Origin: Kalaharituber pfeilii
Taxonomy: Eukaryota; Ascomycota; Pezizomycetes; Pezizales; Pezizaceae
DNA: 64,000 bases
Direction of reading: 5' to 3'
Assembly (NCBI GenBank): GCA_015179045.1
Contig: WHUZ01000053.1
Location: forward strand, 372,001-436,000
Under the pieces are notes generated by a model. That model ran no database searches. It was not told where the DNA came from and was given only the letters and a program-made list of their open reading frames with translations. The position numbers and the translations under genes were made by a program. Of this stretch, positions 20,608 to 61,578 are shown piece after piece. Every line of letters starts with the position of its first letter. The stretch's first letter is position 1.

Positions 20608-20682
20608 CTTTTTTTTTTTTTTTTTTTTATATATATATATATATATCATTACTCGCATGCCGCCCTTCAGGCTATGGCGAGA
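20608..20682 (-). mobile_element. Hairpin retroposon stub, type A
   Basis: A 75-bp insertion between CAACTAGGGAAC (20596-20607) and CAACTAGTGAAC (20683-20694), a 12-bp duplication with one mismatch. On the minus strand it reads TCTCGCCATAGCC, a short loop, GGGCGGCATGCGAG, TAATGATAT, then (AT)n and a poly(A) tail. The hairpin pairs CTCGC with GCGAG and GCC with GGC. It has no coding capacity. Confidence 0.85.
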
Positions 20683-20694
20683 CAACTAGTGAAC

Positions 20695-21169
20695 GTTAAC
20701 GTGTATGTGCGATCTGGCCAGGGCCATCTTGACCGCTCATCTTGGCCAGCTCATCATGACCGCCGGCGTCAAGTCGATATTGATCTCGAATAGCCCTTGC
20801 ACGCCCATGCAAGCCCGGCCCAGCCAGTTTCACAAACTTAATCATTTCCATTGAGCTCGACTCACGATTGTCGGCCTACCTATTTGTCAGTGCTAGCTGC
20901 TAATTTTGCCGGATCTAAGCGGTCTGCCCGTGCTGGGAGGCCTTAGAGCAGAAGGGGTGGAAGCAGGAGGAGGTGGAGGGAGACCCGGTCGAGTATTGGT
21001 TTGCCTGCCTCGATCCGGGGTAGCTGGGGGAACGCTGGGCGCTCAAGGCGTGCACGTAGAGTTTGTAGTCGGTAGCTGCTAACCTGACCCTTCTTGCCTT
21101 GATTTCCTACACACCATGAATCTTCGCTAATAAGAGCACATGATGATTATGAACGTGAAGGGGCAGCGC
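20695..21169. other. Spacer between retroposon stubs
   Basis: No supported gene. Contains a short direct repeat (CATCTTGACCGCTCATCTTG / CATCATGACCGC) near 20728-20765. Confidence 0.4.
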
Positions 21170-21183
21170 GAAATACAGAATGC

Positions 21184-21254
21184 GACCCTGCCATGGCTTG
21201 GCGCTGCAAGCGGGGTTATGTGATTTTTTTAAAAAAAAAAAAAAAAAAAAAATA
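21184..21254 (+). mobile_element. Hairpin retroposon stub, type B
   Basis: A 71-bp insertion between perfect 14-bp duplications GAAATACAGAATGC (21170-21183 and 21255-21268). It begins ACCCTGCCATGG, has the hairpin closed by GCGGGG, then TTATGTGAT and a tail of T7 followed by A21. The 3' motif GGTTAYGTGA is shared with the LINE at 19391-20569. Confidence 0.88.
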
Positions 21255-21327
21255 GAAATACAGAATGCACCTCTCGATAGAAGATTTTCGCAGTGACACC
21301 AGACCAGAGTTGTTCGCATGTTCTGAA

Positions 21328-21329
<2 letters not shown>

Positions 21330-21363
<34 letters not shown>

Positions 21364-21391
21364 CACATTACCCCGCGTGCAGCTGGCAGGG
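21330..21391 (-). mobile_element. Hairpin retroposon stub, type B
   Basis: A 62-bp insertion between perfect 15-bp duplications CGCATGTTCTGAATC (21315-21329 and 21392-21406). On the minus strand: CCCTGCCAGCTGCACGCGGGG, then TAATGTGA and a 34-nt A tail. It is the shortest hairpin of the set (about 28 nt of body) and lies 46 bp from the neighbouring stub's right duplication, in the opposite orientation. Confidence 0.9.
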
Positions 21392-21406
21392 CGCATGTTC
21401 TGAATC

Positions 21407-21991
21407 AAAAGTAGTCAAAAAAAGCGATTGACTTAGAACGGGCCCCCAACGTGAGGTATCACTGCAAAAGGGTATACGTTGCAGGCTAGACTGAGTGTAA
21501 GTAGTCGATTACTCCAGTTTTATATCTTTTCATATACTGCATTTTTAACGATATATAGAGGCATAAACTCAAGGATCTGCAATGCAAATTTGAATCTACT
21601 CCACACACACTCTGATACTCTGGCCAAAAGGCTGATACATCTAGCTATCATAGTCCATCAGCCGGTGTTGCCTCCTATTTACGAGGCCAAGAGAGGCATG
21701 CGATTAATGATATGAAAAAAGAGGCCAAGAGAGCCCTATATCTAAAACATGTGATGGGAATTTCCATTTTAACTCTTTCTCTGTAGACAGCCTGTATTAA
21801 GGGACCGCTCATGTCAGTGCAGCTGGAAGAAATGATATTGGACGGTCGACTCAATTATATCAATAATTTTTTCCCCCTTGCTGAATCTGGTGGTATTCTT
21901 AACGTTTCTCAGGATCTTGAGCATATTTTTCCTAAAGCATTACAGTAACTCTAACCTAACAAAGCCTACCTAAGCCTATTAATTCAGAGGG
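21407..21991. other. Intergenic spacer
   Basis: No supported gene; upstream region of the small gene that follows. A direct repeat of GAGGCCAAGAGAG occurs at 21682 and 21721. Confidence 0.4.
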
Positions 21992-22588
21992 ATGCAGCTA
22001 ATCAGGATATATACTTCTTTCGAATCCACTGAAACCAATCAGCACTGTCAGTCGTGTACTCCCGCAGTGCGACGGCATGAGACAGCAGAAGACACTCCAC
22101 GTCGCCGAAAAACGTTGAAAGTTGTAAATGTATTGTGGACAACATCATTGGTCCTTCAGCGACTACTTCAGAAGTCAGATGCAGAACGCCGACTTGAACA
22201 AGAATTTGAGGCCAAAAAGCAGGACGCACATAGGACCCTCTTGAGTAGGGCTTTCTCAACAGTTTACCACTCTGAGAGTATGGTGGACATTCTCTTGAGC
22301 GCCGAGGGGTTCAAAGAACCGTGGGTATGTGGTGATTATCCAGCTCCACGGGATGAAAATTCACAGAAGATGCAAACGAATTACATAAGAGTTGCTAATC
22401 TAGGTGAGTTGATGCCAGGGAGCGTCGTGAGAGAGATGGGAGAGAGGATACCTAGGACGTGGAGATTTGTCATGAGAAGGAAAGCTTATGAATGGAAATG
22501 GAAATATCTCTGGATACCAAGGGTGGATAGCGTGCAGAAGACGACGAGGGTTAAGAAAAGATTTGTGCTTGAGGAAGAGGAGAACTGA
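21992..22588 (+). CDS. Unknown protein, 198 aa
   Basis: A single ORF from ATG 21992. I do not recognise it. Residues 30-75 are basic and helical (ETAEDTPRRRKTLKVVNVLW, LQRLLQKSDAERRLEQEFEA), with coiled-coil-like spacing. The C-terminal third is aromatic and basic (RTWRFVMRRKAYEWKWKYLW), ending in an acidic LEEEEN. Amino-acid use is balanced and not low-complexity, which favours a real gene. There is no signal peptide or membrane segment. The start may be incorrect if a 5' exon exists, because the first 20 residues look less protein-like than the rest. Confidence 0.5.
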   Translation: MQLIRIYTSFESTETNQHCQSCTPAVRRHETAEDTPRRRKTLKVVNVLWTTSLVLQRLLQKSDAERRLEQEFEAKKQDAHRTLLSRAFSTVYHSESMVDILLSAEGFKEPWVCGDYPAPRDENSQKMQTNYIRVANLGELMPGSVVREMGERIPRTWRFVMRRKAYEWKWKYLWIPRVDSVQKTTRVKKRFVLEEEEN

Positions 22589-22667
22589 TCTTTCTAGCTG
22601 TGGTAGGGTTCTCTGGAGATTGGGACGAGTGGGCATTCTTGGACGGACACGCTGAACTTCAAGGATA

Positions 22668-22668
<1 letters not shown>

Positions 22669-22703
<35 letters not shown>

Positions 22704-22752
22704 AATTATTTCACGTAACCCCGCTTGCAGCTGTTCACCATGGCAGGGCGAG
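22669..22752 (-). mobile_element. (TTA)n microsatellite joined to a type B hairpin stub
   Basis: A run of about eleven TTA/ATT units (22669-22702) leads into TTTCACGTAACCCCGCTTGC, the hairpin, and CACCATGGCAGGGC, that is, a type B stub on the minus strand whose A tail has become (TAA)n. Flanks AAGGATATTTT and GAGGATTTTT are similar but do not prove a target duplication. Confidence 0.65.
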
Positions 22753-23070
22753 GATTTTTGGGTAAAGTGCACGTTGCGGATGCATATATGAACCTACTTG
22801 GAGTTAGCCAATTTTTGGTGCATCATGAACTCTGTATATGCGCATGACAAGGGAAAATGTACCAATTATGTCACAGGAGACTGGCCAGCCAGTCCCACGC
22901 GAGCCATGCTGGACGGTTTGCAACGATGTAACAAGTAGTAATCCCGAAGTACACACTTTCAGGATAACAATGCTGCTATGGCTTGAGGATTGTTAAGGAA
23001 ACATGAACTTTGAATGTTTGCAAGATAATACACTAAATCGCCAGTCTCAAGTGTATCACCCTTCTTCCTC
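22753..23070. other. Intergenic spacer
   Basis: No supported gene or repeat end in this 0.3-kb stretch. Confidence 0.4.
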
Positions 23071-23096
23071 TCTCGTGCAAAATTATTTGCACGAGA
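23071..23096. repeat. Perfect 11-bp inverted repeat with 4-base loop
   Basis: TCTCGTGCAAA, ATTA, TTTGCACGAGA. It lies about 85 bp past the stop codon of the following minus-strand gene, so it could act as an RNA hairpin in its 3' region. Its outer TCTCGTGC resembles the tip of the GTTCTCGTGCCC MITE family. Confidence 0.7.
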
Positions 23097-23180
23097 AATA
23101 AATCCCTTGGCCTCCTCCAAACAAGGTAATGAGATGCCGTCATTAAGATAAGCACTTATGTAAAGCTGACAAAAAACAGT

Positions 23181-24269
23181 TCAATGAGTATCCTCTTTAA
23201 GCGCTGGCTCAGGTTCATCCAACCCGGCCCCCACAAGCACAAATCCAGGCCCCTCTGATTTTATCGCGGCAAGATACCTATACCTAGCCCCTGCCTTCCA
23301 GTTTCCACAATACGGGAACTTCCCATCCGTTTCAGCTTGATCTAGTGACCCACTCGGAGTCACCTCCATTTTCCTCTTCATCAAGATCCCAAACTTTCTT
23401 TGAGTTCCATCACTCCCCTTCAAATCCTTTTCTTTGTCCCTCCACCTCTCCCACCTAGGTGTTGGGCTTGTGGCGGCCGACTTTAAAGCTGTCTTCACGC
23501 CTGCAGGGATCGCTAGCAAACGAGATCTCAGTGCGTGTTTGACGCACGAATGTGCTTTGGTTTTCAGTTTAAGGTCATAAGAATATGATCTCCTAATAGC
23601 AACATCTAGATCTAACGATGTGCTCTCTCGAGCATCGCTATGAATAGTGCTCTCCCCGCTCATGACTGAGAGTGTGGGTAGAGAATGGACTCTCACTAAC
23701 GCGGCTCCTAGGACCTCAAAAATCTCGTTTGCGCCGGCGTCTGGGCCGCTGCACACAGATGGTGCTGGGGTGGTTGAAACACAGACTATAGAGCCTGAAA
23801 TGTTATTCTGTGGGGGCCTGGGGGGGATATAAGAGAGTGAGGGAAGCTGAGTAGGAGAGGAAGTTTCATACTCAGAGGGCGGTGGCACGACAAGGTGTAT
23901 AAGAGTCTTCCTTCTGGAAGTAATGGTGCTTGCCAAGCTTGAATCGATGGCCATGTCAGGTACACTTGGACTGGCCATGCAATCGGCAGCTGATGCAGAA
24001 TTAACAAGTTTGGATTTGCCCACATCTGACGGCCTTGGACTTGCGATCGGGGTTGACAACGGCTTGTTCCATTGCTTGGTAGGACTAGGCAGTGGTGATG
24101 GAGTGGATATCCATGAGGCCTGGTCCGTAGCTAGATAGTTCGGGCGGCGTGAGAACTCTGGGCTGAAATCTGGATGTATCGTGCTTCCGGTGCAGCCACC
24201 GGCCAATGGCCTGAGCACTGATTTGACGACACGCCGAACCTTCACTTTTTTTGACTTCTTGTGACCCAT
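23181..24269 (-). CDS. Unknown Ser/Pro-rich basic protein
   Basis: The frame is open from ATG 24488, but I prefer the ATG at 24269. The protein then opens MGHKKSKKVKVRRVVKSVLR, a plausible basic N-terminus, while the 73 residues before it read like an untranslated or intronic stretch. The product is 362 aa, mostly Ser/Thr/Pro-rich and probably disordered, with PPRPPQNN, an Arg-rich segment near the middle, and a compact C-terminus (PYCGNWKAGARYRYLAAIKS, GPGFVLVGAGLDEPE). No family recognised. The lysine-rich start could be a nuclear or nucleolar localisation signal. Confidence 0.6.
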   Translation of the reverse strand: MGHKKSKKVKVRRVVKSVLRPLAGGCTGSTIHPDFSPEFSRRPNYLATDQASWISTPSPLPSPTKQWNKPLSTPIASPRPSDVGKSKLVNSASAADCMASPSVPDMAIDSSLASTITSRRKTLIHLVVPPPSEYETSSPTQLPSLSYIPPRPPQNNISGSIVCVSTTPAPSVCSGPDAGANEIFEVLGAALVRVHSLPTLSVMSGESTIHSDARESTSLDLDVAIRRSYSYDLKLKTKAHSCVKHALRSRLLAIPAGVKTALKSAATSPTPRWERWRDKEKDLKGSDGTQRKFGILMKRKMEVTPSGSLDQAETDGKFPYCGNWKAGARYRYLAAIKSEGPGFVLVGAGLDEPEPALKEDTH

Positions 24270-24488
24270 TTCTCTCGCGGTTGTGTGAGCTGCGTGGTGA
24301 GGAAGGTGTGATTTTGAGGTCCTTGTTCTTGTTGCAGAGTACAAGGGCCCAAAGGTTGGAAGTTGGGAGGTTGAAGTTGATATGGCCACAAACATAGAAA
24401 GTGGAAGTAGTGCAATCAAGTCCGTCGCGGAATTCGGAATGTAGTGCCAGTGGTGGACGAGACTCCGCACACCGGCGCAGCAGTACAT

Positions 24489-25999
24489 AAGCGCACGCCC
24501 TGATCTATAACTTTGTTAGCCTTTTGTTTTTTTCCCTCTGTCTCCGCTTTGCCTCAGCTATTAGAATTCCCACGTTATGCAGGTATCATGTGGTAGGCCG
24601 GCGCGACCATGTGCCTGGCCGTTAGGCCGCGCCGTTGCGATTCTCGACGTGTAGACTGTGCGAGATTGGTGGATGCGCTGGTAGGGGCGTTTCGGAACTT
24701 TAACACATTGTATGCATGCATGCAGGAGAACAAGGGGAGCGGCTCACAGAATCACGTGAAGACGTGAAGTTGGGTAAGTAGTTTTTCGGTTTGGCGGGGT
24801 TCTAGAAGGAAAATAGGGTGAAAAATACTAGTGATCAGAGGAGATATAGGAGATGCTAACTAGGCAGAGTCTACCACTACTGTACTACTAATATATATTA
24901 CTATCTACTATGTATAATAACATATCAGGGCCAAGGCAGTGCCAACGGTTGAGCGTGAACATCAGCTGCCAACCGCGCCCCAATTGTGCTTGGGAACAAG
25001 GGTAAGTCTCGCATACAATGTGACAGGGATAGTTTCCAGGATAGAGTTGACCTGTTGGTTATGTAATACTCGTTATTCTACACGCATTTTCCGTGGTTTC
25101 ATGCTTCACAGAGTAATTTAAGTTCTTTGTTTTTCAACCAACTTACAGAACTCCATTTCCCAGTCGCAGCCTCGAATCACCTACTGAAGCCTACATACAA
25201 TAGCGAAAGGGAGACTTCAGTCATGAATCTCACAATTGAGAAACTACTCAAGTTCAGAGCGTCAAAATTATTATTGCACGCGATGAATGCACAGCCAAGG
25301 TGGAAAACCCCAGGAAGGGGGGGGATACATAACGAAAGAACAGCTCCGGTCATTAGATAGAAGTGCGCCAGATTAGCTTTGAGCTGTTATGGCAGTTGGG
25401 TGGTAATTATGCAACAGTTTATTGGCTTGTATGCACTTAAAACAAATTACGTGTATCGTATTTTTGTGTGTAAAACCAAGTCTGGGCACGAGAACATTTC
25501 TGAAGACTTTTCGACAAAAAGCATACTAGGACCTACTTCATTTTTGGCCCCCTGACAGGTGACGCACATGATAAGCCTGTGAATCTGTGAATCTGCGCCC
25601 ATGGGAAGTCATCCATTATGCATGCATAGCGCTTCTGAGTATTTTTTCCCCTACCCCCGAGTACGGAATAATGATTCAGAAGGCAGAGAAGGAAAGGGTA
25701 CTAAGCTCATGCGGTTGGCGCTCGACCTTGGGCGTATTACTCTGCCTTATGATAGGAATAGCAACTGAACACTATCTTGGGTCTTGCTGAAGGCTGTCTA
25801 CTAGTACCCAGGCGATAAATTTGGCTTTGAGCATTACTCAGTGTAGCTGACACGCGCAACTGCTCTCGAGCCCAGATGGCAAGAGAGTCTGGGCACGAGA
25901 TCAGGCGCAACACGCAGCGTGGCATGCAGCGCAGTTGCATATTACCGAATTAGAAGCGCCCTTGCCGTATGTAGCATGCATAGAAATGAAGAAACTAAA
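24489..25999. other. Intergenic spacer with terminal-repeat remnants
   Basis: No supported gene. It holds two remnants of the GTTCTCGTGCCC family: a solo end AAGTCTGGGCACGAGAAC at 25479-25496, and a compact inverted pair at 25864-25900 (TCTCGAGCCCAGA facing GTCTGGGCACGAGA). Confidence 0.5.
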
Positions 26000-26083
26000 T
26001 ACTAGCTAGTAAAATATGTATTCGGACATAGCGCATAATGTGCATTGGTACCCCTGTCCGAATACATATTTTACTGGCTAGTA
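26000..26083. mobile_element. 84-bp MITE with 29-bp terminal inverted repeats
   Basis: Left arm 26000-26028 and right arm 26055-26083 match at 28 of 29 positions. The outer sequence is TACTAGCTAG and the inner sequence ATGTATTCGGACA. If TA is the duplicated target, the element proper starts CTAGC. A diverged relative lies at about 61579-61660. There is no coding capacity. Confidence 0.8.
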
Positions 26084-26992
26084 CAAAGCAACGAAAACGT
26101 GGCTGTCAACTGTGTGCATATGCAATAGCAAGCATTGCATGGCGCTGCAACGAGATTACATTCATATTACCCTTATTCGCCCCTGCATACTAAGAACACA
26201 TGCATATGAGGTCTAAGCTTACAAGAGGCTTACTGTGTGATAGATCTATTCTAGATTTCTTGTTTTTATTTTCTTTATTTTCTTTATTTTAATTTTTTTA
26301 ATCTTATTATTACCTTTTTGTATGTAGCCTTGCTAGACTGTGATGAGGCACGGTGGACATCCATGAAAGAAACGCTACATCATATACCGAAAGACTACCA
26401 CCTCCCATGCACCAGAGTTGATCCAGCTTGTCATCTGGATAAAGAGGTGTGCATGCAGCGAGTATTTATTTTTTTGACCTATTATGACGATCAAGGTGGC
26501 CTGGGAATTTGAGAATCAGCCTGGTCAGGGTCACGGCTACCAGCGGAACTATCATCTACTTGATGCTCCAAGATCACGGTTATTAGGCAACGCTAACGCT
26601 TTAAGCCTGCGCCTGCGGCACAGTGTGGCTGTCTGATTGCATTCTCGAGCTCGTGCCAAAACCTTCCAGCCAGGCGCAGTGACAGGCAACTCATTCCTGA
26701 GTTAGGTGAAGTGAGATGCACGTGTGCCACATGTAACATACTATATATGGATGGAAAAGGCCCATAACTCCGTTTATGAGACTACCCATAGCTAGAGGTC
26801 TTAATTAGTCTGGATCGAGATCTATTACATGCATATACGCGCGGGAATGGTGATATGGACACAAGGCTATATATAGATACAGAAGAGTGTAAGTTTAGAT
26901 AGTTCTAAGGGTTGGGATGTGCGGTGGACGCTCGATTAAGCGAGGACCTGGGCGTAAACTGCCAACTAAGGTACTATTTCTCATGGGTGGTA
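26084..26992. other. Intergenic spacer
   Basis: No supported gene; T-rich block at 26259-26310. One 64-aa ORF has no recognisable feature. Confidence 0.4.
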
Positions 26993-28735
26993 GAGTGCTT
27001 CACCTAGAAACCGATCATCACCGGGAAACCGATCAAGTCCATTAACTTACATACAGAGCTGCTGTGAATGCAAATGACACTCAAGTGGGCTAAAATTAAA
27101 GCCAGAGCATGAGAGAACATAGTAAATTATTTTCCACACAATCTTTTCCCAATTTGTAGCACATGAGGGGTGACATATACTGGAATATATGCAACCCTAT
27201 TCTAGGATATACTTTTGAGTCACCATATGTGAATGAGATTACCTGAGGCCTTTGCATCTCAATAAATCCTCTATTGCTTATGCTAAGTAAATATACCAAG
27301 TTTTGTGACTATTGGACTTATCAGTACAAAGTTACTGCCATGTCAAAAAAATACATTGTTGCTCACTTAGGTTGATGGCAGTATTGAGGTAATATTTGAT
27401 GAGAAAGATGCACAGAGCCTCTGTAAAGCTATATAATAGTAATACATGCATAGGGAAATGTTTTCTGACTAGATTGCTGCATTCACAAATGGTTGGGGCA
27501 GTTGAGCACAACAAGGTATACATATATGTAAAAACCTGACTTCCTCACATAGTACGTAGCAGTGTATGCCAATATGGTTACTAGAGGTTTAGAAATATGT
27601 CTTAGCACTGTCGTGCTATTGCTTGTAAGCTTATGTAGGATATACATGACTCCATTAGATCCTATAGGGCTACTATAATTGCACTAGTAAGTAAGTCTAG
27701 AATATGTATTATAAGCAGTGAATAATATATATATTACACTTATAGGACTAATACCTATGAGGTACATGGCAGTGGAAATAAGTTTACTAGTTAAGTCTCA
27801 TATTGTCCTTAATACAATATAATTCCCTATGGTGCTGACCCTTATTAGTATAGAGATAAATACTTCAATAGTATTGGTAATGGAGATAGTAAGCACTGAG
27901 AATTGACCTCCACCAGGTGAAAAAGAAACTTGACTAGCAATTCTCACTAGTTCTTCTTAGTAGCTTATATCGCCTTCATGATGGCAACACATTTTACTGC
28001 TGTCACATATTGCATGCATATTATATACATATGCTTATATATTCCATACGGAGTGCTCAATCCAAGTCAGCCCTTTAGCACCCCATCGAGTGGTAGCAGT
28101 GCCGGTAATAGTACATGAAGCTAGCAGACTATGTTTCCGAACCTCTGGTGACCATATTGGCATACACTGCTACGTACTATGTGAGGAAGTCAGGTTTTTA
28201 CATATATGTATACCTTGTTGTGCTCAACTGCCCCAACCATTTGTGAATGCAGCAATCTAGTCAGAAAACATTTCCCTATGCATGTATTACTATTATATAG
28301 CTTTACAGAGGCTCTGTGCATCTTTCTCATCAAATATTACCTCAATACTGCCATCAACCTAAGTGAGCAACAATGTATTTTTTGACATGGCAGTAACTTT
28401 GTACTGATAAGTCCAATAGTCACAAAACTTGGTATATTTACTTAGCATAAGCAATAGAGGATTTATTGAGATGCAAAGGCCTCAGGTAATCTCATTCACA
28501 TATGGTGACTCAAAAGTATATCCTAGAATAGGGTTGCATATATTCCAGTATATGTCACCCCTCATGTGCTACAAATTGGGAAAAGATTGTGTGGAAAATA
28601 ATTTACTATGTTCTCTCATGCTCTGGCTTTAATTTTAGCCCACTTGAGTGTCATTTGCATTCACAGCAGCTCTGTATGTAAGTTAATGGACTTGATCGGT
28701 TTCCCGGTGATGATCGGTTTCTAGGTGACGCACTC
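26993..28735. mobile_element. Foldback-type element with ~610-bp terminal inverted repeats
   Basis: The arms (about 26993-27603 and 28125-28735) are mirror images around one axis: every matching pair of positions sums to 55728, so there are no indels. They therefore carry the same 67-aa shadow ORF twice, at 27299-27096 and 28429-28632. Ends read GAGTGC(T/G)TCACCTAGAAACC and include a doubled AAACCGATCA motif. The arms are nearly identical outside, but the inner 30 bp differ mainly by C/T and G/A transitions. The 520-bp core has no transposase-like ORF, so the element is non-autonomous. I see no clear target duplication. Confidence 0.88.
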
Positions 28736-31226: not shown

Positions 31227-31263
31227 CGAATTTCTTGTTCATGAAGTGGTCTTGTAACTGTTC

Positions 31264-31322
31264 TTTTTTTTTTTTTTTTTTATATCAGTACTCGCATGCC
31301 GCCCCATGGGCTATGGCGGGGT
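31264..31322 (-). mobile_element. Hairpin retroposon stub, type A
   Basis: A 59-bp insertion between perfect 12-bp duplications TTGTAACTGTTC (31252-31263 and 31323-31334). On the minus strand it reads ACCCCGCCATAGCCCATGGG, GCGGCATGCGAG, TACTGATAT, A tail. The inner stem is GCCC/GGGC. Confidence 0.9.
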
Positions 31323-31334
31323 TTGTAACTGTTC

Positions 31335-37916: not shown

Positions 37917-38033
37917 TGAATGGAGTGGGATTCGAACCCACGCGGTTTCCCACTGCGATTCCCAGGGATTCTGCATAACCATGATGACTTAAGAATCCTG
38001 AACACAGCGCCTTAACCACTCGGCCATCCATCC
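37917..38033 (-). tRNA. tRNA-Leu(CAG) with 38-nt intron
   Basis: Acceptor GGATGGA pairs with TCCATTC (one G-U), discriminator A. The D-arm is GCC GAGTGGTTAA GGC. The anticodon stem CTGTG pairs with CGCAG, and the loop TTCAGG|T carries anticodon CAG. A 38-nt intron follows position 37 and contains CCTGGG, complementary to the anticodon loop, as expected for nuclear tRNA introns. The variable arm has 11 nt, the T-arm is GTGGG TTCGAAT CCCAC. The class II form and TGGCCGAGTGG A box agree with leucine. Confidence 0.93.
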
Positions 38034-38983: not shown

Positions 38984-39036
38984 GGGGGGGGGGGGGTCAC
39001 GTAACCGCGCATACAGGCTACCAGCCTATGGCAGGG
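38946..39036 (-). mobile_element. Type B hairpin stub with T37-G14 tail
   Basis: T37 and G14 (38946-38996) precede TCACGTAACCGCGCATACAG, the hairpin, and CCTATGGCAGGGA. On the minus strand this is the LINE type B 3' end followed by C14 and A37. The C14 between body and A tail is unusual. The hairpin is almost identical to that of the LINE at 19391-20569. Confidence 0.7.
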
Positions 39037-39089: not shown

Positions 39090-39155
39090 TTTTTTTTTTT
39101 TAATATCATCACTCGCATGCCGCCCTAAGGGCTATGGCGAGGTAAAAATCTCATC
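39090..39155 (-). mobile_element. Hairpin retroposon stub, type A
   Basis: A 66-bp insertion between TCGGTTCGTA (39080-39089) and TCGGTTTGTA (39156-39165), a 10-bp duplication with one mismatch. On the minus strand: ACCTCGCCATAGCCCTTAGG, GCGGCATGCGAG, TGATGATATT, A tail. The inner stem is GCCC/GGGC. Confidence 0.8.
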
Positions 39156-41824: not shown

Positions 41825-41843
41825 TAAATGATAGGCATGCCAT

Positions 41844-41887
41844 TTTTTTCACGTAACCCTGCTTATCGCTATTCGCTATGGCAGGGC
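41844..41887 (-). mobile_element. Hairpin retroposon stub, type B (44 bp)
   Basis: The smallest insertion: 44 bp between GATAGGCATGCCAT (41830-41843) and GATTGGCATACCAT (41888-41901), a 14-bp duplication with two mismatches. Minus strand: GCCCTGCCATAGCG ... AAGCAGGG, TTACGTGA, A6. The closing stem CCCTGC/GCAGGG is perfectly paired here, where other copies have a T-G wobble. Confidence 0.88.
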
Positions 41888-42861
41888 GATTGGCATACCA
41901 TAGTAGTACTCTCAACTACAAATATACCAAAGAGACAGAAGCACAACTAAGATAAACACTACAGAAGCATGACTAGGATAAATAACACCATCTGTTTGCC
42001 CAATTAGGATACCGAAATGAAAATTCTATCACTAAGCATTATGATCCTTATTAGCATTGGCACTATCCAATATGACAGGTCCAGTTACTAGTAAATCCAG
42101 GAAAGCGGCCGGCGAAATCGTTATCCATCCCCAATAAATGAAAATATCCAATAATCCCACAGCACCAAATTCGGGCCGACAAGGTTTATGCAATATGACA
42201 GGTTTGTCTGTATAAGGTACTACTACTGGTGTAAGGAGGAGTGCCATCAAAGCAGTCAATATACTATTGGTAAAAGGACACGAGTCAATTGAGCGATGCT
42301 CCTAAGCCTGTCTCATTGACCAGCGTTTCTAGAATCACGTTCGGCGAGGAAATCCTGTAATACGGTGCAGTTATACTATGTCGTAGTATATATTCGTTAT
42401 ATGAAACGATTTCTATAAGCGACCGATAGCTGGAGTCCCCCCACCCCCTTGTCACAGGCCTACCCAGAGATGCTGGGGATATCCACCTGAGTTGACCCGT
42501 AAGGCTGCTAGTGACCATTCGGCCTGATCAACCGATAGCTACAGCAGGGCAATACAATTGACAGGTCGGGTCACGGAAGTGTATCACAAGCAGAGCGCAT
42601 GGTTGAGTGAGTTGCGCCACTGAGTGGCAAGAGTACGCGTAGGCTTGTTGTGCACAGCCTCAGACGTTGTTATTGATTGTTAGGGGTTGATATCAATTGT
42701 TAAGCATAGATAGCATAAGCAATAGAACAGACAGTGGACGTGCGCGGGGACCTGGTTATATAACGAGGGCCTTCTGCCCTCGAGAGATGGTCAAGCTTCA
42801 AGCGTTGTCCTAAGTTACACCCTCACTTTTGCTACATCATCGTAGGCTCCGTAACACCCCC

Positions 42862-44451: not shown

Positions 44452-44860
44452 CTATTTTTTTATATACATATCATTACTCGCATGTCGCCCTGTAGGCTAT
44501 GACGAGGTTAACTACAAAGGAGACTTAAGGAAAAATGATTTATAGGGGAAAATTGCTCCGCCTCTTCCTTGCCCTTCCAACCCCGATAACGTAGAGGATC
44601 TTAGAGATAAGGAAAGAAAGTCATCGTCCCGCCCGCCCCAGCATCTCGGCCAAGGGGTCCCTCTCGCCCTCCTTCGCCTTCGGTGGATCTCTCACCACGT
44701 CTGCCTGCCCTGGCCACTTCCGTCTCCATACTCTGCACCTGTTCCAGATGTGATCCGCCGTCTCTTCGCCCTCCCCACGCCACCTGCGCTCTGGGCTATC
44801 TTCTTTGCCTATCTTGTGTCTCCAGGCCCTGAGGCCCTTGCGCCCCGGAAATCCCGCAAC
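44452..44860 (-). mobile_element. 3' fragment of a LINE with type A hairpin end
   Basis: Minus-strand coding reads FPGRKGLRAWRHKIGKEDSP, then GEGEETADHIWNRC and DPLAEMLGRAGR-stop at 44621. This is the C-terminal zinc-knuckle-like tail that follows RNase H in Tad1-like LINEs. The 3' UTR ends in CTCGTCATAGCCTACAGGGC, GACATGCGAG, TAATGATATGTATA and a short A tail. It shows that the type A hairpin is a LINE 3' end. The fragment is 5'-truncated; I could not find its target duplication. Confidence 0.75.
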
Positions 44861-46184: not shown

Positions 46185-46290
46185 GGATGGTTGGCCGAGT
46201 GGTTATGGCGGCAGTTTTAAGTACCAATAGTGATTGTGTATTTGAACACTGCTATCGAGAGATGCAAGGGTTCAAATCCCTTACCATCCA
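46185..46290 (+). tRNA. tRNA-Leu(UAA) with 25-nt intron
   Basis: Acceptor GGATGGT pairs perfectly with ACCATCC, discriminator A. D-arm GCC GAGTGGTTAT GGC. Anticodon stem GCAGT/ACTGC, loop TTTAAG|C with anticodon TAA. A 25-nt intron follows position 37. Long variable arm TATCGAGAGATGC; T-arm AAGGG TTCAAAT CCCTT. A and B boxes are intact. Confidence 0.94.
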
Positions 46291-46304: not shown

Positions 46305-46438
46305 GGTTCTATGGCGCAATTGGTTAGCGCGTCCGGCTGTTAACAGAGCGAGCCTGATTTCAGCAACAGTTGATGCTGGAGCTTTGGTGAGTTCATTAGG
46401 GGACCGGGAGGTTGGAAGTTCGAGCCTTCCTAGAACCG
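46305..46438 (+). tRNA. tRNA-Asn(GUU) with 60-nt intron
   Basis: Acceptor GGTTCTA pairs perfectly with TAGAACC, discriminator G. D-arm GCGC AATTGGTTA GCGC. Anticodon stem TCCGG/CCGGG, loop CTGTTA|A with anticodon GTT. A 60-nt intron follows position 37. Variable loop AGGTT; T-arm GGAAG TTCGAGC CTTCC. It starts 14 nt after the preceding tRNA-Leu with no T run between. Confidence 0.93.
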
Positions 46439-48575: not shown

Positions 48576-48619
48576 CTTTGCCCTGCCATGGCGAACAGCT
48601 GGAAGCGAGGTTACGTGAT
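48576..48619 (+). mobile_element. Type B hairpin stub without A tail
   Basis: GCCCTGCCATGGCGAACAGC, TGGAAGCGAGG, TTACGTGATA. Matches the type B body but lacks a poly(A) tail and a clear target duplication, so it may be an old copy. Confidence 0.55.
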
Positions 48620-51170: not shown

Positions 51171-51212
51171 GTTTGTTTCTGCTGCTGAGGCCCAAGTCAG
51201 AGATGATATCAA

Positions 51213-52993: not shown

Positions 52994-53140
52994 CTAATCA
53001 AATGTAGCTTCAAACCATTCGTGCAGCTCATGCTGAGAAAGTAAAGGATCTGCTTGAGCATGGAGAAAAAGTTGATACTGTTCCGCATCTATAGGGTTCT
53101 GATGCCTGCGGCATGAGGAGGAGCTTGAGTTTGAGGCCAT
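52994..53140 (-). pseudogene. Transposase N-terminal remnant inside the pogo-like element
   Basis: ATG 53140: MASNSSSSSCRRHQNPIDAE, LFLHAQADPLLSQHELHEWF, stop after 48 residues. It has the expected position for the N-terminus but stops before a complete helix-turn-helix region. Confidence 0.45.
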
Positions 53141-53477
53141 GATTGCAGATACCAGAGTATTGGTACCAGAGCGTTCGAGTTTGAGTCAAATTCAGATATT
53201 CTTCACATATAGCTTGAGACGAAGGCCTATACACTACTATATTCGCTTTGCATATTTTACCCACTAGTGTCATATACTAAGCATTAGTTGGTTGTGCTAT
53301 CCAATATGACAGGGAAAAATTGTTAGAGAAACCCCTGTCTGGGCGGGCTATGATATCCATCCAATATTGCTAAATATCCAATACTCCCCATAGTCCCGAG
53401 CTCGGGAGAGGACCTCTTATCTAATAGCGGCTAATATCCAATAAGTGAAGATCCAATATGAGAGGTTCGACTGTATG

Positions 53478-53569
53478 TAACCTCGCCATAGCCCAAAGGG
53501 CGGCACGCGAGTAATGATATGAAACTAAAATAAAAAAAAATTAATAAATTAAAAAAAATTAAAAAAAAA
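53478..53569 (+). mobile_element. Hairpin retroposon stub, type A, directly abutting the pogo-like element
   Basis: ACCTCGCCATAGCCCAAAGG, GCGGCACGCGAG, TAATGATATGAAAC, then an A-rich tail of about 50 nt with T interruptions. It begins a few bases after the TA target of the pogo-like element. A duplication GTATGTA / ATACGTA at its flanks is possible but weak. Confidence 0.7.
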
Positions 53570-54360: not shown

Positions 54361-55584
54361 ATGCCTTCACCACTGCGATACTCTACTACAGCTGCGTCCC
54401 CAGCAAGGCAAAGCAGAGAATCGCAGCCAAGTTATGAGTCTTCTCAGAATGCCAGGGCAGGTGCTTCCTTCGCTAGCTTGACAGACAGGAGTGCAAATGC
54501 AAGCAATACAGAGAAGAATAATCAGTATGCGGAGCATTCGCTTGCGAATTCCACTTCTAGCAGCAACGGAGCCGATGCAAATATCCAACTAGAAGAGAAG
54601 TTGGTTTCTTCAACGGCACTAGCGGAAATTATAGAGCAGGAGGCTCGAAGTTTGACTATAGGGAAAAGCCGAAGCCGATCTCGATCCAGCGTTGAGTGTT
54701 TAATAAAAATGCCGCGCATCCGCGGAATCCAGATGCGGTCAGGTAGAAAAATCAGATATAAGCCAATTCAAAACCTTGAGGCCGCCATTGCGCAAACTAG
54801 GGGGGTCCTCCATACCGGCGAAAAAGCTTGTTTACCCTGTAGAAGGATACTTGGGCCTTTTGCACAGTGTGTACGGGTCCCAGGTCAGTTTATGGAATCC
54901 TGTGCGTCTTGCCATTACAATGCAATGGGAGCAAGATGTTCTTTCCGGCAAACTGTAAGGGTGATTGCAGGTTTGTGGTCCTAATCGGTCTGCATTGAGA
55001 GAAACTGCGGTTTTATACTGATGAGTACATCTTTAGGGGAATCCCAACATAATACAGAAGCGACAGAACCAAATACATCACAACAGGAAAACACTCACCC
55101 AGCGGAGGAGGATATCAACACAAATGCAGGGGAGCGTGCGGTTGTCAATACAACCCGTTCGACGCCTATTGCTTCAGCCTCAAGTGGGCTTGTTAACCCT
55201 CCAATCGAAGCTTCAACTATTCAGGAACATCCACAGTTCCACACATTCCGCCTCCAAGCTACTCCATATAGCACTACCGTGGATTCGGTCTCTAAATCCA
55301 CCTCCGTAGCTGCAGCTGCTAGGCCAACTGGTGTGGGTAAAGTATATACCGCAACTACTACTTCCCATGTTGCGACTAGTTCAGAAAGTTCAGTGGCCTA
55401 TCGTACTGGGCCCGTAGCTGAGCCAAGGAGCCAGAAGATGCAAAAAGTTCTCAACTGCTACATGGCGCTAGGGCAGCTTATGAAGGATATGGTCTCCGAT
55501 ATGCAAAACAAGATGAACAGTATCGATGAACTTTTAACAGCGCTAGGACAGGAAGTAGCTCAAGTACAGCAGAACGTGCAGTGA
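54361..55584 (+). CDS. Cys-rich DUF3716-like protein, copy 1
   Basis: Exon 1 is 54361-54954 and exon 2 is 55000-55584; the 45-nt intron (GTAAGG...TTGAG, CTAAT branch-like site) is phase 0. It is the shortest I propose here, so exon 2 could be a separate gene. A Ser-rich, disordered N-terminus leads to the domain at about 140-195: LEAAIAQTRGVLHTGEKACL, PCRRILGPFAQCVRVPG, ESCASCHYNAMGARCSF. The spacing TRG-x(6-9)-C-x2-C-x4-G-x-F-x2-C ... C-x2-C ... C-S is that of fungal DUF3716-type proteins, with six Cys that could bind zinc; function unknown. The second exon is Thr/Ser-rich and ends in a coiled coil (MKDMVSDMQNKMNSIDELLT). Two paralogues lie downstream on the same strand. Confidence 0.65.
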
Positions 55585-57015
55585 GATGCCTTGATACTGC
55601 AAATTACAATAGCCGTCTAGCCCAAATATTCCAATTTATAATGTCTTGAGGCATAAGAGCTATATCTCATTCCATTCGTTTTAATTCGATGTTTTTAAAT
55701 TTCTGCAAAAGAGATTGGCAATTGATAGTGGACACGGCTAGTATCACAGTGAATATCTACTTGCTTTTTATGTCGCATTGACCGTTCTATGTAATGTACC
55801 CCGATGATACGTTTTGATTTTGTGGCAGAACAGAACAGTTTGGACACCCAGTCCACATAAGCTTGGCGTGATTGGAAGCACAGTTTAGTCAGCATCTGGT
55901 TATAGGAAGTAACAGTGGGATCCGAAGCAAGTGGTAAGCTTCTTAGTAAGGCCTATTACAGATCGGGTGGGGAGGCTCAGCCGGCCGACACGTATACATA
56001 CTGGTCGACTCCGAGACCGAAGGCCGCGTGGAAAACATTAGCTGAAACTTTTGTCCAAACATGACACAGCACTTAGCTTCCCAATATAATCTTTCGAAGT
56101 GCTGTCACCCGGGCTAAGTTGTTGCTTCTGGGGTTTATCATGTTGCCTCTTAGCTGCCTAGATGGGGGAAGGATATTAGGCCTAGTATGGATGTGCTACT
56201 CCAGTTTAGGATCAAAAGCTTCGCTGAAGCTTCGTGTATGCGGGGGAAAGAGTATCAGCATTTTAATAGAGTCGTAACTAACCAGAATATACAGGCCTAT
56301 AGATTAGCTGCATAGCGTACTACTCGGTGGACAGGTGCTCGTTGGGTCTTGGATTCAGGGTGATATAAAGGCTTACTACGGCATAGCGTCGCTCCAGCGG
56401 TATGATCCTCTGGCCCGGCCTTTCCTCGCTGTGCGCGTCGACACCAGTATACAAAGGGCGTAGCAGTTTCTAATTCCAAACGGTTCCGTCACCAGAATCA
56501 CGGGGAAGGGCAAGTCGACTATCCGGAACTGGGTCTGTCGTTGATACAAACACGAGATTTTGTACTCGTGGAGCTAATGCACAGTTTTCTTGGTAGGCCT
56601 ACAAGTTGTTTCAAGTGGCTGGGCACTTATCAGTTCGATCGCTTTCCGGAGTATACGCACTAATTCGATGTAGTTATACAGCCTCATTTCCTCTCCTCAA
56701 CCAGGCAACATCTCCCTCAGGGCCCGAGCCTGATTCAGCAGACATATCCCTGGGCAAGTTTGTCTACAAGCGCTCTCAACTAGTTTTCGATCAACCACCC
56801 AGTCGCCTGAGAAACCAATTCACGGTAATAAGCGCCAGATAGACCAATCGTCATCACCAGAGATTGCACACAATAAGAACGAACAGGACGTTTTAAGGCT
56901 TGCCAAAAGGATTTTTAGTGGTCGAATAATATAAACACAACTCCGGTCCTGTTGCTACTTGAAAGCCTGTACGATAATTCGCGGAACTTCTTAGCACACG
57001 CCCCATGTGCTTCAT
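55585..57015. other. Spacer between Cys-motif paralogues
   Basis: 1.4 kb without a supported gene. A 78-aa plus ORF (56606-56842) is not convincing. Confidence 0.4.
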
Positions 57016-57798
57016 ATGACGAACATCCCAAACGACATGAAACAGCAGTCCGCAGGCCCTATTGTTCCTCCGTCACCAATTTCAAGCTCTTGCCACGCTA
57101 GCTCTAGTACGGAACCTGAAATCGAAACAAAACCTCTTGAACGGCACAGTGGGGAAGGCGCCACCAATTACAACGTTCGCATAAAATTCATCCAAGAGCT
57201 GAATGATCTCCAGAGTGGCCGCATTGAGCCCACTCAACCAACGGTGCAACTGAACGGGATCGTTAACGATGATTCAGCTAACCGCAGTCGCACCCGAGCG
57301 AGCAAGCTGTTTCAACAAAAACTTGTTCGAGGGCTTACGCTGCGAGAACGTAGCGGACAGCCTCGAACAAAAGTTACCATGACAGTTCCCCGCCGTCTTG
57401 AAGGGGCGTTGATTCAGACTCGTGGCCAGATCAACACTGGCGAAGGACGTTGTTCAAGATGCTCATCAGGGGCCGGCGTGTTCGCTGAGTGCATATCTAT
57501 ACACTGGGAGGACCTTACAGACAGCCAGCTTTTAGATGTCGACAGAGCGTGCGGTAATTGCAGGTTTGCTGGCCTTGCGAGATATTGTTCCCTTGTTACT
57601 GGAGAGCCAAAAGTTACGAAGCGGAAATACTGGCCGAACGAGACTAATAAGCAATCCGAAAACCGTGGGACCATAAGAGTTTGTGAACTGAGGGCAAGGG
57701 CACCCTTCTTGGGAGGTAATACTCTAGCAGTCAACATAATAAACAGCGTGCATATATACTTACAAGTCTACAGAGGGCCCATTATGTGTGAAATCTGA
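57016..57798 (+). CDS. Cys-rich DUF3716-like protein, copy 2
   Basis: ATG 57016 (MTNIPNDMKQQSAGPIVPPS); the frame above starts with GTG. The protein is 260 aa. A disordered N-terminus and a basic segment (RASKLFQQKLVRGLTLRERS) precede the domain: LEGALIQTRGQINTGEGRCS, RCSSGAGVFAECISI, then a 12-residue longer loop and CGNCRFAGLARYCSL. All six Cys of copy 1 are present. The last 40 residues (VNIINSVHIYLQVYRGPIM) look like translated intron, so the real gene probably splices near 57715 and continues into later sequence; I could not settle the splice sites. Confidence 0.6.
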   Translation: MTNIPNDMKQQSAGPIVPPSPISSSCHASSSTEPEIETKPLERHSGEGATNYNVRIKFIQELNDLQSGRIEPTQPTVQLNGIVNDDSANRSRTRASKLFQQKLVRGLTLRERSGQPRTKVTMTVPRRLEGALIQTRGQINTGEGRCSRCSSGAGVFAECISIHWEDLTDSQLLDVDRACGNCRFAGLARYCSLVTGEPKVTKRKYWPNETNKQSENRGTIRVCELRARAPFLGGNTLAVNIINSVHIYLQVYRGPIMCEI

Positions 57799-58624
57799 TC
57801 TACTTGATTTTAGACAGAAGCAGGAAGACTTTACCGGGGAGCTGAACGGGAGCGTGGATAGCGGCCCTTCTGAGGGTGATCGTACTCCTCAGGCTCACAA
57901 CATTGCTCAGGTATCGCCTCAGGGGGCAGAAGTATCGGCTTCAGGTGGGTACCGTCTCCATGGATGGACATGTATCAACCCACCAATTGCAAGAAAGTAG
58001 GGCACGTCTCATTTGGGTTGCTGAAATGACGCGTTTGCAATAGTAGAAGTCGATGAAAGGGGAGTTTTGCGATTGCCTTTTTTCAACGGCAGATTTGCTG
58101 TCGAGGATGATTCGGCACATTCTCCAGACTCTTTTGACTGTCGAATTTTCAATGAATTTCTTACTCTTTCTTTGTTTTCATTTTATTCCTTGTTTAGACT
58201 AGTCTTCAAGTGTGAGGGCAACCAGATTAGTTCAAATTCCTTGGTTCCTGTTAAAGTTAGCCTCATGCTCCTCTAGGAATTACTCTTATTCCTAACTTAC
58301 CGATCGCGAATTCGATCCGAAGTATATATTCCTCCTGTTCCCCACCATCCTTGTTTCGCGATCTGCGTCTCAACTCTCCCTCGACATTTGGTCGTTCGAC
58401 TAGCAATACCTTCCACTCACACCAATAGATATCACGCATATATATTTTCAGCAGAGTCGTTCATTTTCAATTCCGGCCTCAAAGATTGGCGACAGCGTGG
58501 CTAGATCAATTGCTGAAGTCACTGAGGTTCCCACGGAGGCGGAACGATACAAGCCGTGTACAGAAGCCTATGTTGCCTGAAGGCTCCGACAGGGCAAGTC
58601 TCGTAGTCTTGACAATGTCTCGGG
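57799..58624. other. Spacer, possible missed exons of the Cys-motif genes
   Basis: A plus ORF at 57788-58000 (EGDRTPQAHNIAQVSPQGAE) has a composition like the disordered parts of the neighbouring genes and may be a 3' exon of copy 2. The rest is T-rich and non-coding. Confidence 0.35.
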
Positions 58625-60193
58625 ATGAAGACTGCCAACATCCAAACCTTCTTATCCCCTCTACAGAAATGCTCAACCCAGACAGGCTTCAAGGAGGTCG
58701 CGAAAGAGAGAGTGCCAGGATTACCCGTATTTATTTTTTTCAACCAACTTCTTCAACTAGTGACCAATCCTCAATATCGCTGGGAAAAGCCTCACGAGAC
58801 TGACATCAAGTCCCCGAAATTTTTTGGGAAGCCAGATGGTCCTAGTGACAGGATGCTTGTTCTCCCACCAGTTCGTAAAATCGTGTTGAGGCCTTCAGTC
58901 GATACTGTGTTATATCATACTGCAATTCACATCCGCGCAGCAATCCTACATACTCGTGGCATTGTGAAGTCTCTTGAGGAAAGCTGTGACGGATGCAAAG
59001 TCGGTAACGGGCCCTTTGACAACTGCGTCGTTCTGCCTGGCGAGATGGATGGCGAGTGTTCAAATTGCGTCTATGGGAAGTGGGCAAGATCCACTGCAAG
59101 AGATGAGACGTCGGCATCTTGGGTGAAGTGGTGCTCCTTTGCACCTGAATTGAGGCAAAAGGCTCTACAAACGATGAAAACGTGGAAGGAGCAGCAAGCT
59201 TTGAAAAAAGCACTGAAGGGAAAGGAGATCCGAAACGCAGCAGAGCCAACGAAAATGACTACTTCAAGGAAACGAAAGCCAACAGCTAAGATTCTGGAAA
59301 TTTCTACGGCAGCGGGGACTGGGGACCTAAAGCAAACGGGTTGTAGTAAGCCACAACAAGTACAAATGGATACTAATAATGGTAATTTTGGTAAGCATGC
59401 CCAGTTTGCTTCTGGTGTATATATACCGGTGAGGTACTTATTTATATATATGCCTATAGTTAAACGACAGAAAAATGGACCTCTACCAGCTCCATCGGCC
59501 TGTGAGAAACGGTCTATGGGGCATAAAATACAGTTATCCCACTCAGCTGCTCCAAATCTGAAACGTCCTTACAGCTTGGGGCAGCCACCTACACCCAAGC
59601 CTATAACTGATGTATCAGTGAGTTTCAACTTCTCTCCCCAGAAGGCTCGCCATCAATTGTCGCCCAAGCCATGTAAGGCAAAACAAGAGGGCAATACGCG
59701 TTCCTCTAATTCTCATATGGCCCAAGATTCGCATGATGCTATCAAGCCCGGCAAAGACAATCTCAACAATGTCCTCATTCAGCCAAAATTCACCAACTCC
59801 TCCATATCTTGCACATCTAAGGCAGAAACCAGCCCTACACCCTCTGCGGTCCCGCAATTCCCCAAGCCACTCCCCATCCCCGATTCGCGGCCAATCTCTC
59901 CAGCATTGTCCACCTCACTCATTACGCAACGGCTCTTTTCTGGCGCACTACGGACTGCAGAAGACGATAGGATCCACAAAGAGATAAACTACATCCTAGG
60001 CGAGTGGGAGCATCTCAACCAGACTGGGTGTATAGATGGGCATGGATCTCTTGATAGCGAAGACACGAGTGAGAATGGGAAGGATGAGGATGGGGAGAGT
60101 GAGGACGGGGAGAATGAAGAAGGGCGGGAATATGTATGCTTAAATGAGGAGGAAGGACAGGTGGGTGAACAAGGTGAATTGCAGATGGAATGA
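58625..60193 (+). CDS. Cys-rich DUF3716-like protein, copy 3
   Basis: A 522-aa ORF from ATG 58625. Domain at about 98-180: IRAAILHTRGIVKSLEESCD, GCKVGNGPFDNCVVLPGEMD, ECSNCVYGKWARS, then an insertion and VKWCSF. It keeps GPF and the C-x2-C pair. A basic helix follows (TMKTWKEQQALKKALKGKEI), then a long Pro/Ser/Lys-rich part and an acidic tail (DSEDTSENGKDEDGESEDGE). A 42-nt stretch after GVYIP (GTGAGG...CGACAG, in frame) codes RYLFIYMPIV, unlike its surroundings, and is probably an intron. The first 60 residues are also doubtful; a 5' exon is likely. Confidence 0.6.
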   Translation: MKTANIQTFLSPLQKCSTQTGFKEVAKERVPGLPVFIFFNQLLQLVTNPQYRWEKPHETDIKSPKFFGKPDGPSDRMLVLPPVRKIVLRPSVDTVLYHTAIHIRAAILHTRGIVKSLEESCDGCKVGNGPFDNCVVLPGEMDGECSNCVYGKWARSTARDETSASWVKWCSFAPELRQKALQTMKTWKEQQALKKALKGKEIRNAAEPTKMTTSRKRKPTAKILEISTAAGTGDLKQTGCSKPQQVQMDTNNGNFGKHAQFASGVYIPVRYLFIYMPIVKRQKNGPLPAPSACEKRSMGHKIQLSHSAAPNLKRPYSLGQPPTPKPITDVSVSFNFSPQKARHQLSPKPCKAKQEGNTRSSNSHMAQDSHDAIKPGKDNLNNVLIQPKFTNSSISCTSKAETSPTPSAVPQFPKPLPIPDSRPISPALSTSLITQRLFSGALRTAEDDRIHKEINYILGEWEHLNQTGCIDGHGSLDSEDTSENGKDEDGESEDGENEEGREYVCLNEEEGQVGEQGELQME

Positions 60194-60531
60194 AAGCTGA
60201 GTGCAAACTTATGTGAACTTAGGGTATTTGAAGGGCTTTTGACATTGCAAAGGCCCCAAATGTGATATATTAGATTGAGCCAGGCATGTGGCGGGTAAGC
60301 TTGTGAATACTTCATATATGGAGGACCAATTGATGTCATGGTTTCGAACCAACGAAACAGTATTGATGGGAATCCCAACCGAGTTCTTACAGTGTACAGT
60401 GAGCTTTTACAGATTAGGGATAGTTTCTTTACTTGTCTATCGTGACCAGTTCGATAATTCATGATTGGAACGTGAACGGAAGAATGCACGTTTTTTTTTT
60501 TGTTATTGCTGTGTCAAAACGTGTGGTTCAG

Positions 60532-60533
<2 letters not shown>
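60194..60533. other. Intergenic spacer
   Basis: 3' region of copy 3; no gene. Confidence 0.4.
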
Positions 60534-60616
<83 letters not shown>

Positions 60617-60640
60617 CATTCCTCGCATGCCCATACCATA
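60534..60640 (-). mobile_element. 78-T tract with a truncated type A stub
   Basis: 78 consecutive T (60534-60611), then AATTTCATTCCTCGCATGCC as in the type A 3' end, after which similarity to the hairpin stops at CATACC. It is therefore a poly(A) tail of a minus-strand copy, the longest homopolymer in the window. Confidence 0.7.
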
Positions 60641-60915
60641 TCAAATACACAAATACCTTACTTAATCATTTGACACATATACACTTCACCACCTTGAATA
60701 CTATTACCTTGGCATGGACGGTTAGAGATTAGGTGCCCGGGCTTTATTACCTACATGCTGAGGTGACCGTTTGGAAGGGCAACAACGCTTTGTTTCGTAG
60801 GCATAACCATGTGTACTTAAAGGTCGAAATTTTAATTTTACTTCACTCTACAGCCAGTCTAACTAGATCACTGCATTACTTCTTTGAAGGTGTTTGGTTC
60901 CTAGCAAACAGGAAG
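60641..60915. other. Intergenic spacer
   Basis: No gene recognised. Confidence 0.35.
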
Positions 60916-60976
60916 TTTTTTTTGTTTTTTTTTTTAATATTGGTATTCGCATGCCGCCCTTCGGACTATGGCGAGA
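60916..60976 (-). mobile_element. Hairpin retroposon stub, type A
   Basis: T8GT11 then AATATTGGTATTCGCATGCC, GCCCTTCGGACTATGGCGAGA. Minus strand starts TCTCGCCATAG, the same 5' boundary as other type A copies. No clear target duplication. Confidence 0.7.
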
Positions 60977-61578
60977 TTGGTTACATATGGAACAAGAGGT
61001 TGTACTCACAGTGTTTTTGTGCACCTGTACATTTTCGCCGCCCCGCTGGAGCATACTGTAAGAGCTCAGAAGGCCGATCTGCGTATACGCCGAGAAAAGA
61101 AAGGATGTTCCTTGATTTGAAGGCGACATGTATGGAGCAGTATGAAGTGCTTAACGTCCTGCGGGAACGCGCGTTTTGAAAAAAAAAAAAAAAATGAAAA
61201 AAAATAGTAAATCCCCAACTGGACAATGATTTGAAAGCGATAGACTAGACCTTTCTGTCCCGTACTCCCCCGTTCTCGTGCCAAGACTATTATTTTCGGC
61301 TGTAGTACTCGAGTACTCCCCTGAGGCACACACCTTTTTTTTTACAACTCCGCTGCCACCGCCACCACCCACAACACCATCAAACGCACGATTGCTGCAG
61401 GAGGAAACATAAGACGCATATCTATAGTTGTACCGCCTAGTATTTTAACAACGGGCTCTACTGAAATATACACAAGTACACACCATGGAAGTTCCTAGCC
61501 ATGTACGCCTGTCGCCTTTGACCTAAGCAATTGCTTCCCAAATAAGACTTAGCTTGGTCTGGGGAAGAAGCGCCTGCA
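60977..61578. other. Intergenic spacer
   Basis: Contains a solo GTTCTCGTGCCAAGAC end at 61273-61288 and A/T homopolymers. No supported gene. Confidence 0.4.

Follow-up and report, generated by a model that had tools for sequence, protein, structure and literature searches.

Short hairpin inserts with discrete 5' ends in the Kalaharituber pfeilii genome as likely by-products of long interspersed nuclear elements

Scattered through a 64,000-nt stretch of the Kalaharituber pfeilii genome (assembly GCA_015179045.1, contig WHUZ01000053.1, positions 372,001 to 436,000; hereafter the window) lie very short sequences built around a hairpin, often followed by an A tail and in several cases enclosed by target-site duplications (TSDs), which fall into three hairpin types named here A, B and C (Table 1). 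The original prediction for this DNA had described them as a minimal class resembling short interspersed nuclear elements (SINEs), with fixed 5' ends and with TSDs at six loci. When the window was searched at a lenient threshold (score >=7, ending <=10 nt from the hairpin), five of the six duplications were found abutting the hairpin and nothing at 39090-39155, while the copies near 22711, 38997, 48576, 53478 and 60916, for which no clear duplication had been claimed, indeed gave no TSD. The hairpin stubs, meaning inserts that begin at the hairpin foot, are confirmed and occur genome-wide, and the interpretation first placed on them is partly supported; my verdict is that they are real, widespread and unusual by-products of long interspersed nuclear elements (LINEs) with base-precise ends, for which the rank of a new SINE class is not proven.

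Table 1. Hairpin copies in the window (window positions; TSD, target-site duplication).
Feature	Position	Strand	Details
Type C copy, LINE-attached (absent from the original prediction)	19411..19600	-	hairpin 19411-19450; LINE sequence over >=150 nt upstream
Type A stub	20596..20694	-	TSD 20683-20694 + 20596-20607, 12 bp, 1 mismatch; hairpin 20651-20681; tail to 20608
Type B2 stub	21170..21268	+	TSD 21170-21183 + 21255-21268, 14 bp, 0 mismatches; hairpin 21186-21215, then TTATGTGA, A tail
Shortened type B stub	21315..21406	-	TSD 21392-21406 + 21315-21329, 15 bp, perfect; hairpin 21371-21391 + TAATGTGA; A tail
Type B hairpin	22711..22748	-	GAACAG-like loop; G precedes hairpin; TSD not found
Type A stub	31252..31334	-	TSD 31323-31334 + 31252-31263, 12 bp, perfect; hairpin 31290-31320; A tail
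Type C hairpin	38997..39036	-	without LINE leader; no TSD
Type A hairpin	39090..39155	-	hairpin 39111-39141; claimed 10-bp duplication not found at lenient threshold
Type B stub	41830..41901	-	TSD 41888-41901 + 41830-41843, 14 bp, 2 mismatches; extra G; hairpin 41857-41886; short tail
Type A hairpin (absent from the original prediction)	44476..44506	-	no TSD
Type B hairpin	48581..48618	+	G precedes hairpin; neither TSD nor A tail seen
Type A hairpin	53482..53512	+	no TSD
Type A hairpin	60945..60975	-	no TSD

Across the genome (78 Mb in 360 contigs), exact matches, and hence lower bounds, number 1661 for type A and 421 for type B, with none for the reversed-pattern controls, and 207 for type C, which has two copies in the window. 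Samples were the first places listed in contig order, chosen by a hairpin-only pattern regardless of flanks, and TSDs were sought up to 300 nt upstream of the pattern, with shuffled upstream/downstream pairs as the control. In type A the best TSD ended 0-5 nt before the pattern in 24 of 94 copies (at least one of them, L136, doubtful, since its downstream TSD copy lies 89 nt away), was scattered over 13-247 nt in 30 and was lacking in 40, while the shuffles gave 14 with any match and a mean of 1.05 within 8 nt; in type B the figures were 15 of 70 at 0-6 nt, 14 elsewhere and 41 with none, and the shuffles gave means of 7.9 with any match and 0 within 8 nt. A looser threshold gives 28/94 and 16/70 stubs, respectively. 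Because the sample so far exceeds the shuffles, chance is excluded for the TSDs at the hairpin foot, and the fixed ends originally proposed for a handful of copies hold; a smooth spread of 5' ends and an absence of TSD enrichment, which the original prediction had named as speaking against it, were looked for in copies sampled from the genome and neither occurred. Among type A copies that do not end at the hairpin foot, the remaining TSD-defined ends do scatter, but the overall picture is one of spikes at 0-6 nt, and in the LINE subfamily B3 also at 36-40 nt, rather than the scatter that marks ordinary 5'-truncated LINE copies. In a larger pooled set the ends cluster at d=3-4 in type A, 1-2 nt before a predicted 5-bp stem, and at d=0-2 in type B, on the first base of a predicted 7-bp stem.

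The marks of retroposition are likewise present, namely an A tail and TSDs mostly of 9-15 bp. TSDs measure 9-14 bp in type A stubs, 10-15 bp in type B stubs (one of 34) and 11-17 bp in longer type A copies, an agreement that points to one insertion machinery; they start most often with AA, GA or AT (41/75), the kind of target start that LINE endonucleases prefer. The flank upstream of a stub resembled another sampled flank in only 6 of 75 cases, as against 99 of 144 for other copies. At one stub locus (L020) the TSD falls within another type A hairpin, so that a stub has been inserted into a stub or a LINE tail.

The hairpins are LINE 3' ends. Many copies run on upstream into repeated sequence, with a T-rich leader in type A, a GC-rich one in type B and a third one in type C, for which 14 of 20 fetched copies carry one leader (<=4 mismatches in 20) and another two have what seem to be diverged versions; in two type C copies, L222 and L223, short matches resembling a TSD (scores 9 and 8) adjoin the hairpin. 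The type C copy at 19411-19450 in the window keeps its upstream similarity up to the 150-nt limit tested. Of seven upstream open reading frames (ORFs) scanned, all from type A, B1 and B2 loci, five encode RNase H (PF00075; L011, L015, L020 and L033 in type A, L067 in B2), although the L020 ORF may belong to a neighbour, given that L020 is itself a stub locus; the other two, from B1 (L057, L064), had no Pfam match. I take the LINEs with these tails to be probably Tad1/I-like, an ORF2 with an RNase H domain being one mark of that clade. All 10 proteins that matched one LINE ORF fragment come from Kalaharituber pfeilii. Some B1 tails (L040, L052, L057, L062, L064) directly follow an ORF that by eye resembles ORF1, like internally deleted LINEs. 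When 90 type B copies were classed, 24 were stubs, 59 LINE-attached and 7 neither, and the base just ahead of the hairpin is in most cases the one found in the LINE: A in B1 and B2, T in C and G in B3. The stubs have what LINE copies have, a 3' end in common with a LINE, an A tail and a TSD, and among the sampled copies of types A, B and C alike there are many LINE 3' ends, which tells against a separate SINE-like class.

Nor do the stubs have the head of a SINE. No RNA polymerase III (Pol III) RNA head was found at the window hairpins by Rfam (three tRNA matches, all elsewhere) or ARAGORN (0), which bears out the earlier description of the window copies as not tRNA-derived, and since sampled stubs begin at the hairpin foot they leave no room for such a head. 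Of the features of a SINE, they have the LINE-common 3' end, the A tail and the TSDs, and lack the Pol III-derived head.

A conserved, structured 3'-terminal stem-loop of the kind carried by stringent LINEs was found. Standard pairs fill 778 of the 810 pair cells in a set of 90 distinct type A hairpins, compared with 260-352 when the partners are slid, a percentage that is inflated, as the patterns used to collect most of these copies prescribe the majority of the stem bases. Two pairs covary: the outer one is CG in 70 and AT in 11, the AT forms being seen in bystander copies, and the loop-closing pair, which the pattern leaves free, is CG in 59 and TA in 21. Variation is greatest in the loop. 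Folded singly, six tails gave folds only a little better than those of shuffled sequences (z -0.1 to -2.0). By analogy with stringent LINEs (PMC4176376, in excerpt), the type A structure is consistent with selection for a recognition hairpin, and the reverse transcriptase (RT) of each LINE probably binds to that LINE's terminal hairpin.

The commonest stubs are those of type B that begin with G, and their parent was found. Before the type B core, GGGA occurs in 861 genome copies and a non-G followed by G (HG) in 804; for the GCTGC core these numbers are 229 and 220, respectively. The GCTAC core is preceded by G in 521 of 534 copies (the other 13 being 10 stubs, 2 LINE-attached and 1 unclear), and 68 copies show GGGG and 453 do not, where about 6-11 GGGG would be expected by chance. 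All 20 fetched GGGG copies have the leader of B3 over its final ~14 bases or more, so that the G before the stub hairpin can be templated; B3 and the stubs also both show two main 3' variants, TCACGTGA and TCATGTGA. As the most abundant stub family thus has a LINE parent with identical tail and flanking G, a separate SINE class is not shown: an independent G-start SINE without LINE parent is rejected on the 68 GGGG copies with B3 leader, and a cap-derived extra G on the B3 template. The tail TCACGTGA, found for example at the 3' ends of the stubs L189, L193 and L200, is a perfect palindrome that contains an E-box (CACGTG), a site that stubs could spread.

How, then, does a LINE give rise to an insert of some 40 nt? 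LINE identity, TSDs, discrete 5' ends and structure can be read from the DNA, and the reading that I favour, with confidence slightly above even, is that the stubs are 3'-terminal LINE RNA fragments, trimmed from the 5' side to the hairpin and inserted by LINE target-primed reverse transcription. Decay or cleavage would shorten the LINE RNA from the 5' side until it met a hairpin that is stable or carries a bound protein, and would stop at the 5' foot of that hairpin, leaving a remnant of ~40 nt made of the terminal hairpin and poly(A), or of ~77 nt in LINE B3 when an upstream hairpin survives too; the RT would then bind the hairpin, prime on the A tail and run off the 5' end of the fragment. 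That the LINE machinery does the inserting is well supported; that the trimming comes before reverse transcription, and through what enzyme, we infer.

The second discrete end in B3 bears most directly on this. TSDs lie 36-40 nt upstream of the terminal hairpin in nine copies (L118, L217, L242, L243, L244, L248, L251, L257, L261), that is, 7 of 20 fetched B3 copies plus L118 and L217, whereas shuffles gave 0-1, and this end falls at or next to AAGCCTG, the 5' foot of another predicted 7-bp hairpin (the bases of L118 differ somewhat). Of 141 pooled type B copies, which several patterns had brought together and whose share of stubs therefore does not give the genome-wide rate, 62 have a TSD, never at 7-35 nt, an empty interval that holds a 3' foot where an RT entering the upstream hairpins would stall, which argues for trimmed templates. 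The position of the ends at 5' feet of predicted hairpins is the main argument for such templates. At the 5' junction of one B3 copy (L250), a 12-bp TSD is followed by a T run before AAGCCTG, perhaps added without a template or left by a nested tail.

LINE 5' truncation is usually ascribed to an RT that stops early, and a LINE RT could likewise abort on a full-length template just past the hairpin, for example when blocked or held by a hairpin-bound RT or a second protein. I find this doubtful. It would agree with the 3' ends and TSD lengths that stubs and LINE-attached copies have in common, with the match of most stub end bases to a LINE template and with the binding of known stringent LINEs to their own 3' stem-loop described in an excerpt of PMC4176376; yet it is the 5' feet of hairpins that mark the ends, whereas the structure of a hairpin would halt an RT at the 3' foot; to reach the second B3 end, an RT would already have copied two further predicted hairpins; and many A and B copies pass the site into LINE sequence. 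Moreover, GAACAG-loop stubs with two extra bases never show the GG of B3 (0/6; TG 3, CG 2, TT 1), which is what bases added without a template once the RT has run off would give. Ends that gather at hairpin feet speak for truncated RNA templates rather than an early stop, and of the two mechanisms in the original prediction, a template already ending at the hairpin foot is the more likely one.

An unlikely alternative, for at least the G-start stubs with GAACAG loop, is a self-amplifying, promoterless retroposon, an ultra-short SINE excised from host RNAs and retroposed anew. Its appeal is that one exact core has 453 copies without GGGG and 68 with it, and that 16 of 20 HG copies (the first 22 in the list, less two that had been collected before) have a TSD at 0-2 nt, the one at L194 being a second-best match, while 3 have none there; at L203 the TSD lies at 6 nt, with the stub core between a 28-bp imperfect duplication and no A tail. 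But LINE B3 has the identical tail, the identical G and both 3' variants, no stub-specific diagnostic base was seen among fetched copies, and by eye no promoter is evident in the 39 nt. Were such a 39-nt retroposon to exist, which I equally doubt, its hairpin would set its own 5' end, any transcript with the hairpin and an A run would be trimmed and retroposed by a LINE, and each new copy could act as a source without a promoter. A DNA-level origin as fold-back transposons like miniature inverted-repeat transposable elements (MITEs), or as microsatellite-borne hairpins, is barely credible in spite of the short inverted repeat between duplications, and MITEs are rejected, because TSD length varies over 9-15 bp, the A tail is on one side only, the hairpins continue into LINEs and TSDs start with AA, GA or AT in 41 of 75.

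Several observations weigh against the trimming of LINE RNA. The 68-to-453 imbalance of the GCTAC core is not explained by trimming alone, nor are the stub fractions among GAACAG-like loops, with 5 stubs to 34 LINE-attached copies when A precedes the hairpin and 16 to 4 when G does (p=6e-7; 7 others left out). Type A stub loops (looser TSD set) are more diverse than those of the remaining copies, 21 distinct in 28 versus 14.5 expected, and do not mirror them. The 4-bp middle hairpin of B3 yields no end; L194 has a higher-scoring TSD match at 51 nt than the one at 2 nt; two of the six stubs with extra bases have the GCTGC core, for which the parent LINE is uncertain; and the window copy at 21186, whose loop CTTGG is that of B2 LINEs, has between TSD and hairpin an extra GA that matches the template. 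On the other hand, 16 of the 28 type A stub loops also occur in LINE-attached or unclassified copies, and many different loops are expected if many LINE families shed stubs; of two T-rich type A leaders folded, one is unpaired and one partly paired with the tail, and I count these leaders in favour of trimming. The alternatives are that some hairpins enjoy better protection or make better templates, and that some stubs amplify again.

Stubs and 5'-truncated LINE copies are alike in 3' end, A tail, TSDs and insertion by LINE machinery, but an excerpt of PMC3747384 gives the usual truncation as falling at various positions, with copies of 100-1,000 bp, whereas here the ends cluster at hairpin feet and the inserts are ~40 nt plus tail. 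In UnaL2 and ZfL2-1/ZfL2-2 the 3' end forms a conserved stem-loop that the RT probably recognizes, and the ZfL2 loop matters for recognition (PMC4176376, in excerpt); here the loops vary strongly between families and the hairpin alone is inserted in many copies. Tad1 in fungi is named among LINE/SINE pairs with common 3' ends (PMC5135761, in excerpt), and the fungal Mg-SINE, SINE2-1_BG (with Tad1-24_BG) and AfuSINE2 have LINE tails (PMC3747384, PMC5063351, in excerpts), so that they, like the stubs, are non-autonomous and end as a fungal LINE does; as far as these excerpts go, however, fungal SINEs have tRNA heads (5S rRNA in AfuSINE3) and are longer (AfuSINEs from 140 bp), and the stubs are headless. 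A platypus retroposon is also short and without Pol III promoter, but in the excerpt of PMC3747384 it derives from a snoRNA, and the stubs derive from the LINE's own tail. Among the matches listed from the open-licence PMC literature (titles and opening abstracts), none described hairpin-only LINE inserts; one of those listed, PMC2104539, concerns template jumps in Magnaporthe. Exonuclease-resistant RNA fragments, the 5' end of which is set by a structure that stops 5'-to-3' decay, offer an analogy only, and simple hairpins may need a bound protein to stop decay. What makes the stubs of wider interest is the hint that trimmed RNA fragments, and not whole transcripts, are copied into DNA, and truncated templates can be tested for in this genome with its many natural endpoints, resolved to the base; the stubs also bear on the minimum size of a retroposon and on how many of the short repeats in a genome might consist of an RT-recognition hairpin and nothing else, and may be missed in repeat annotation.

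Some features of the window copies are minor. In the shortened type B stub, hairpin and TAATGTGA together measure 29 nt (21363-21391), possibly after an internal deletion during reverse transcription, and as its core pattern has one genome match only, a family of its own is rejected. A C14 run separates the type C hairpin at 38997-39036 from its A tail. The type A hairpins at 60945-60975 and 44476-44506 may not be true stubs, because their weak similarity (about 76-84%) to other loci extends some 17-29 nt beyond the hairpin. The three tRNA genes placed by Rfam at 37917-38033, 46185-46290 and 46305-46438, none of them listed by ARAGORN, are 106-134 bases long and so probably intron-bearing.

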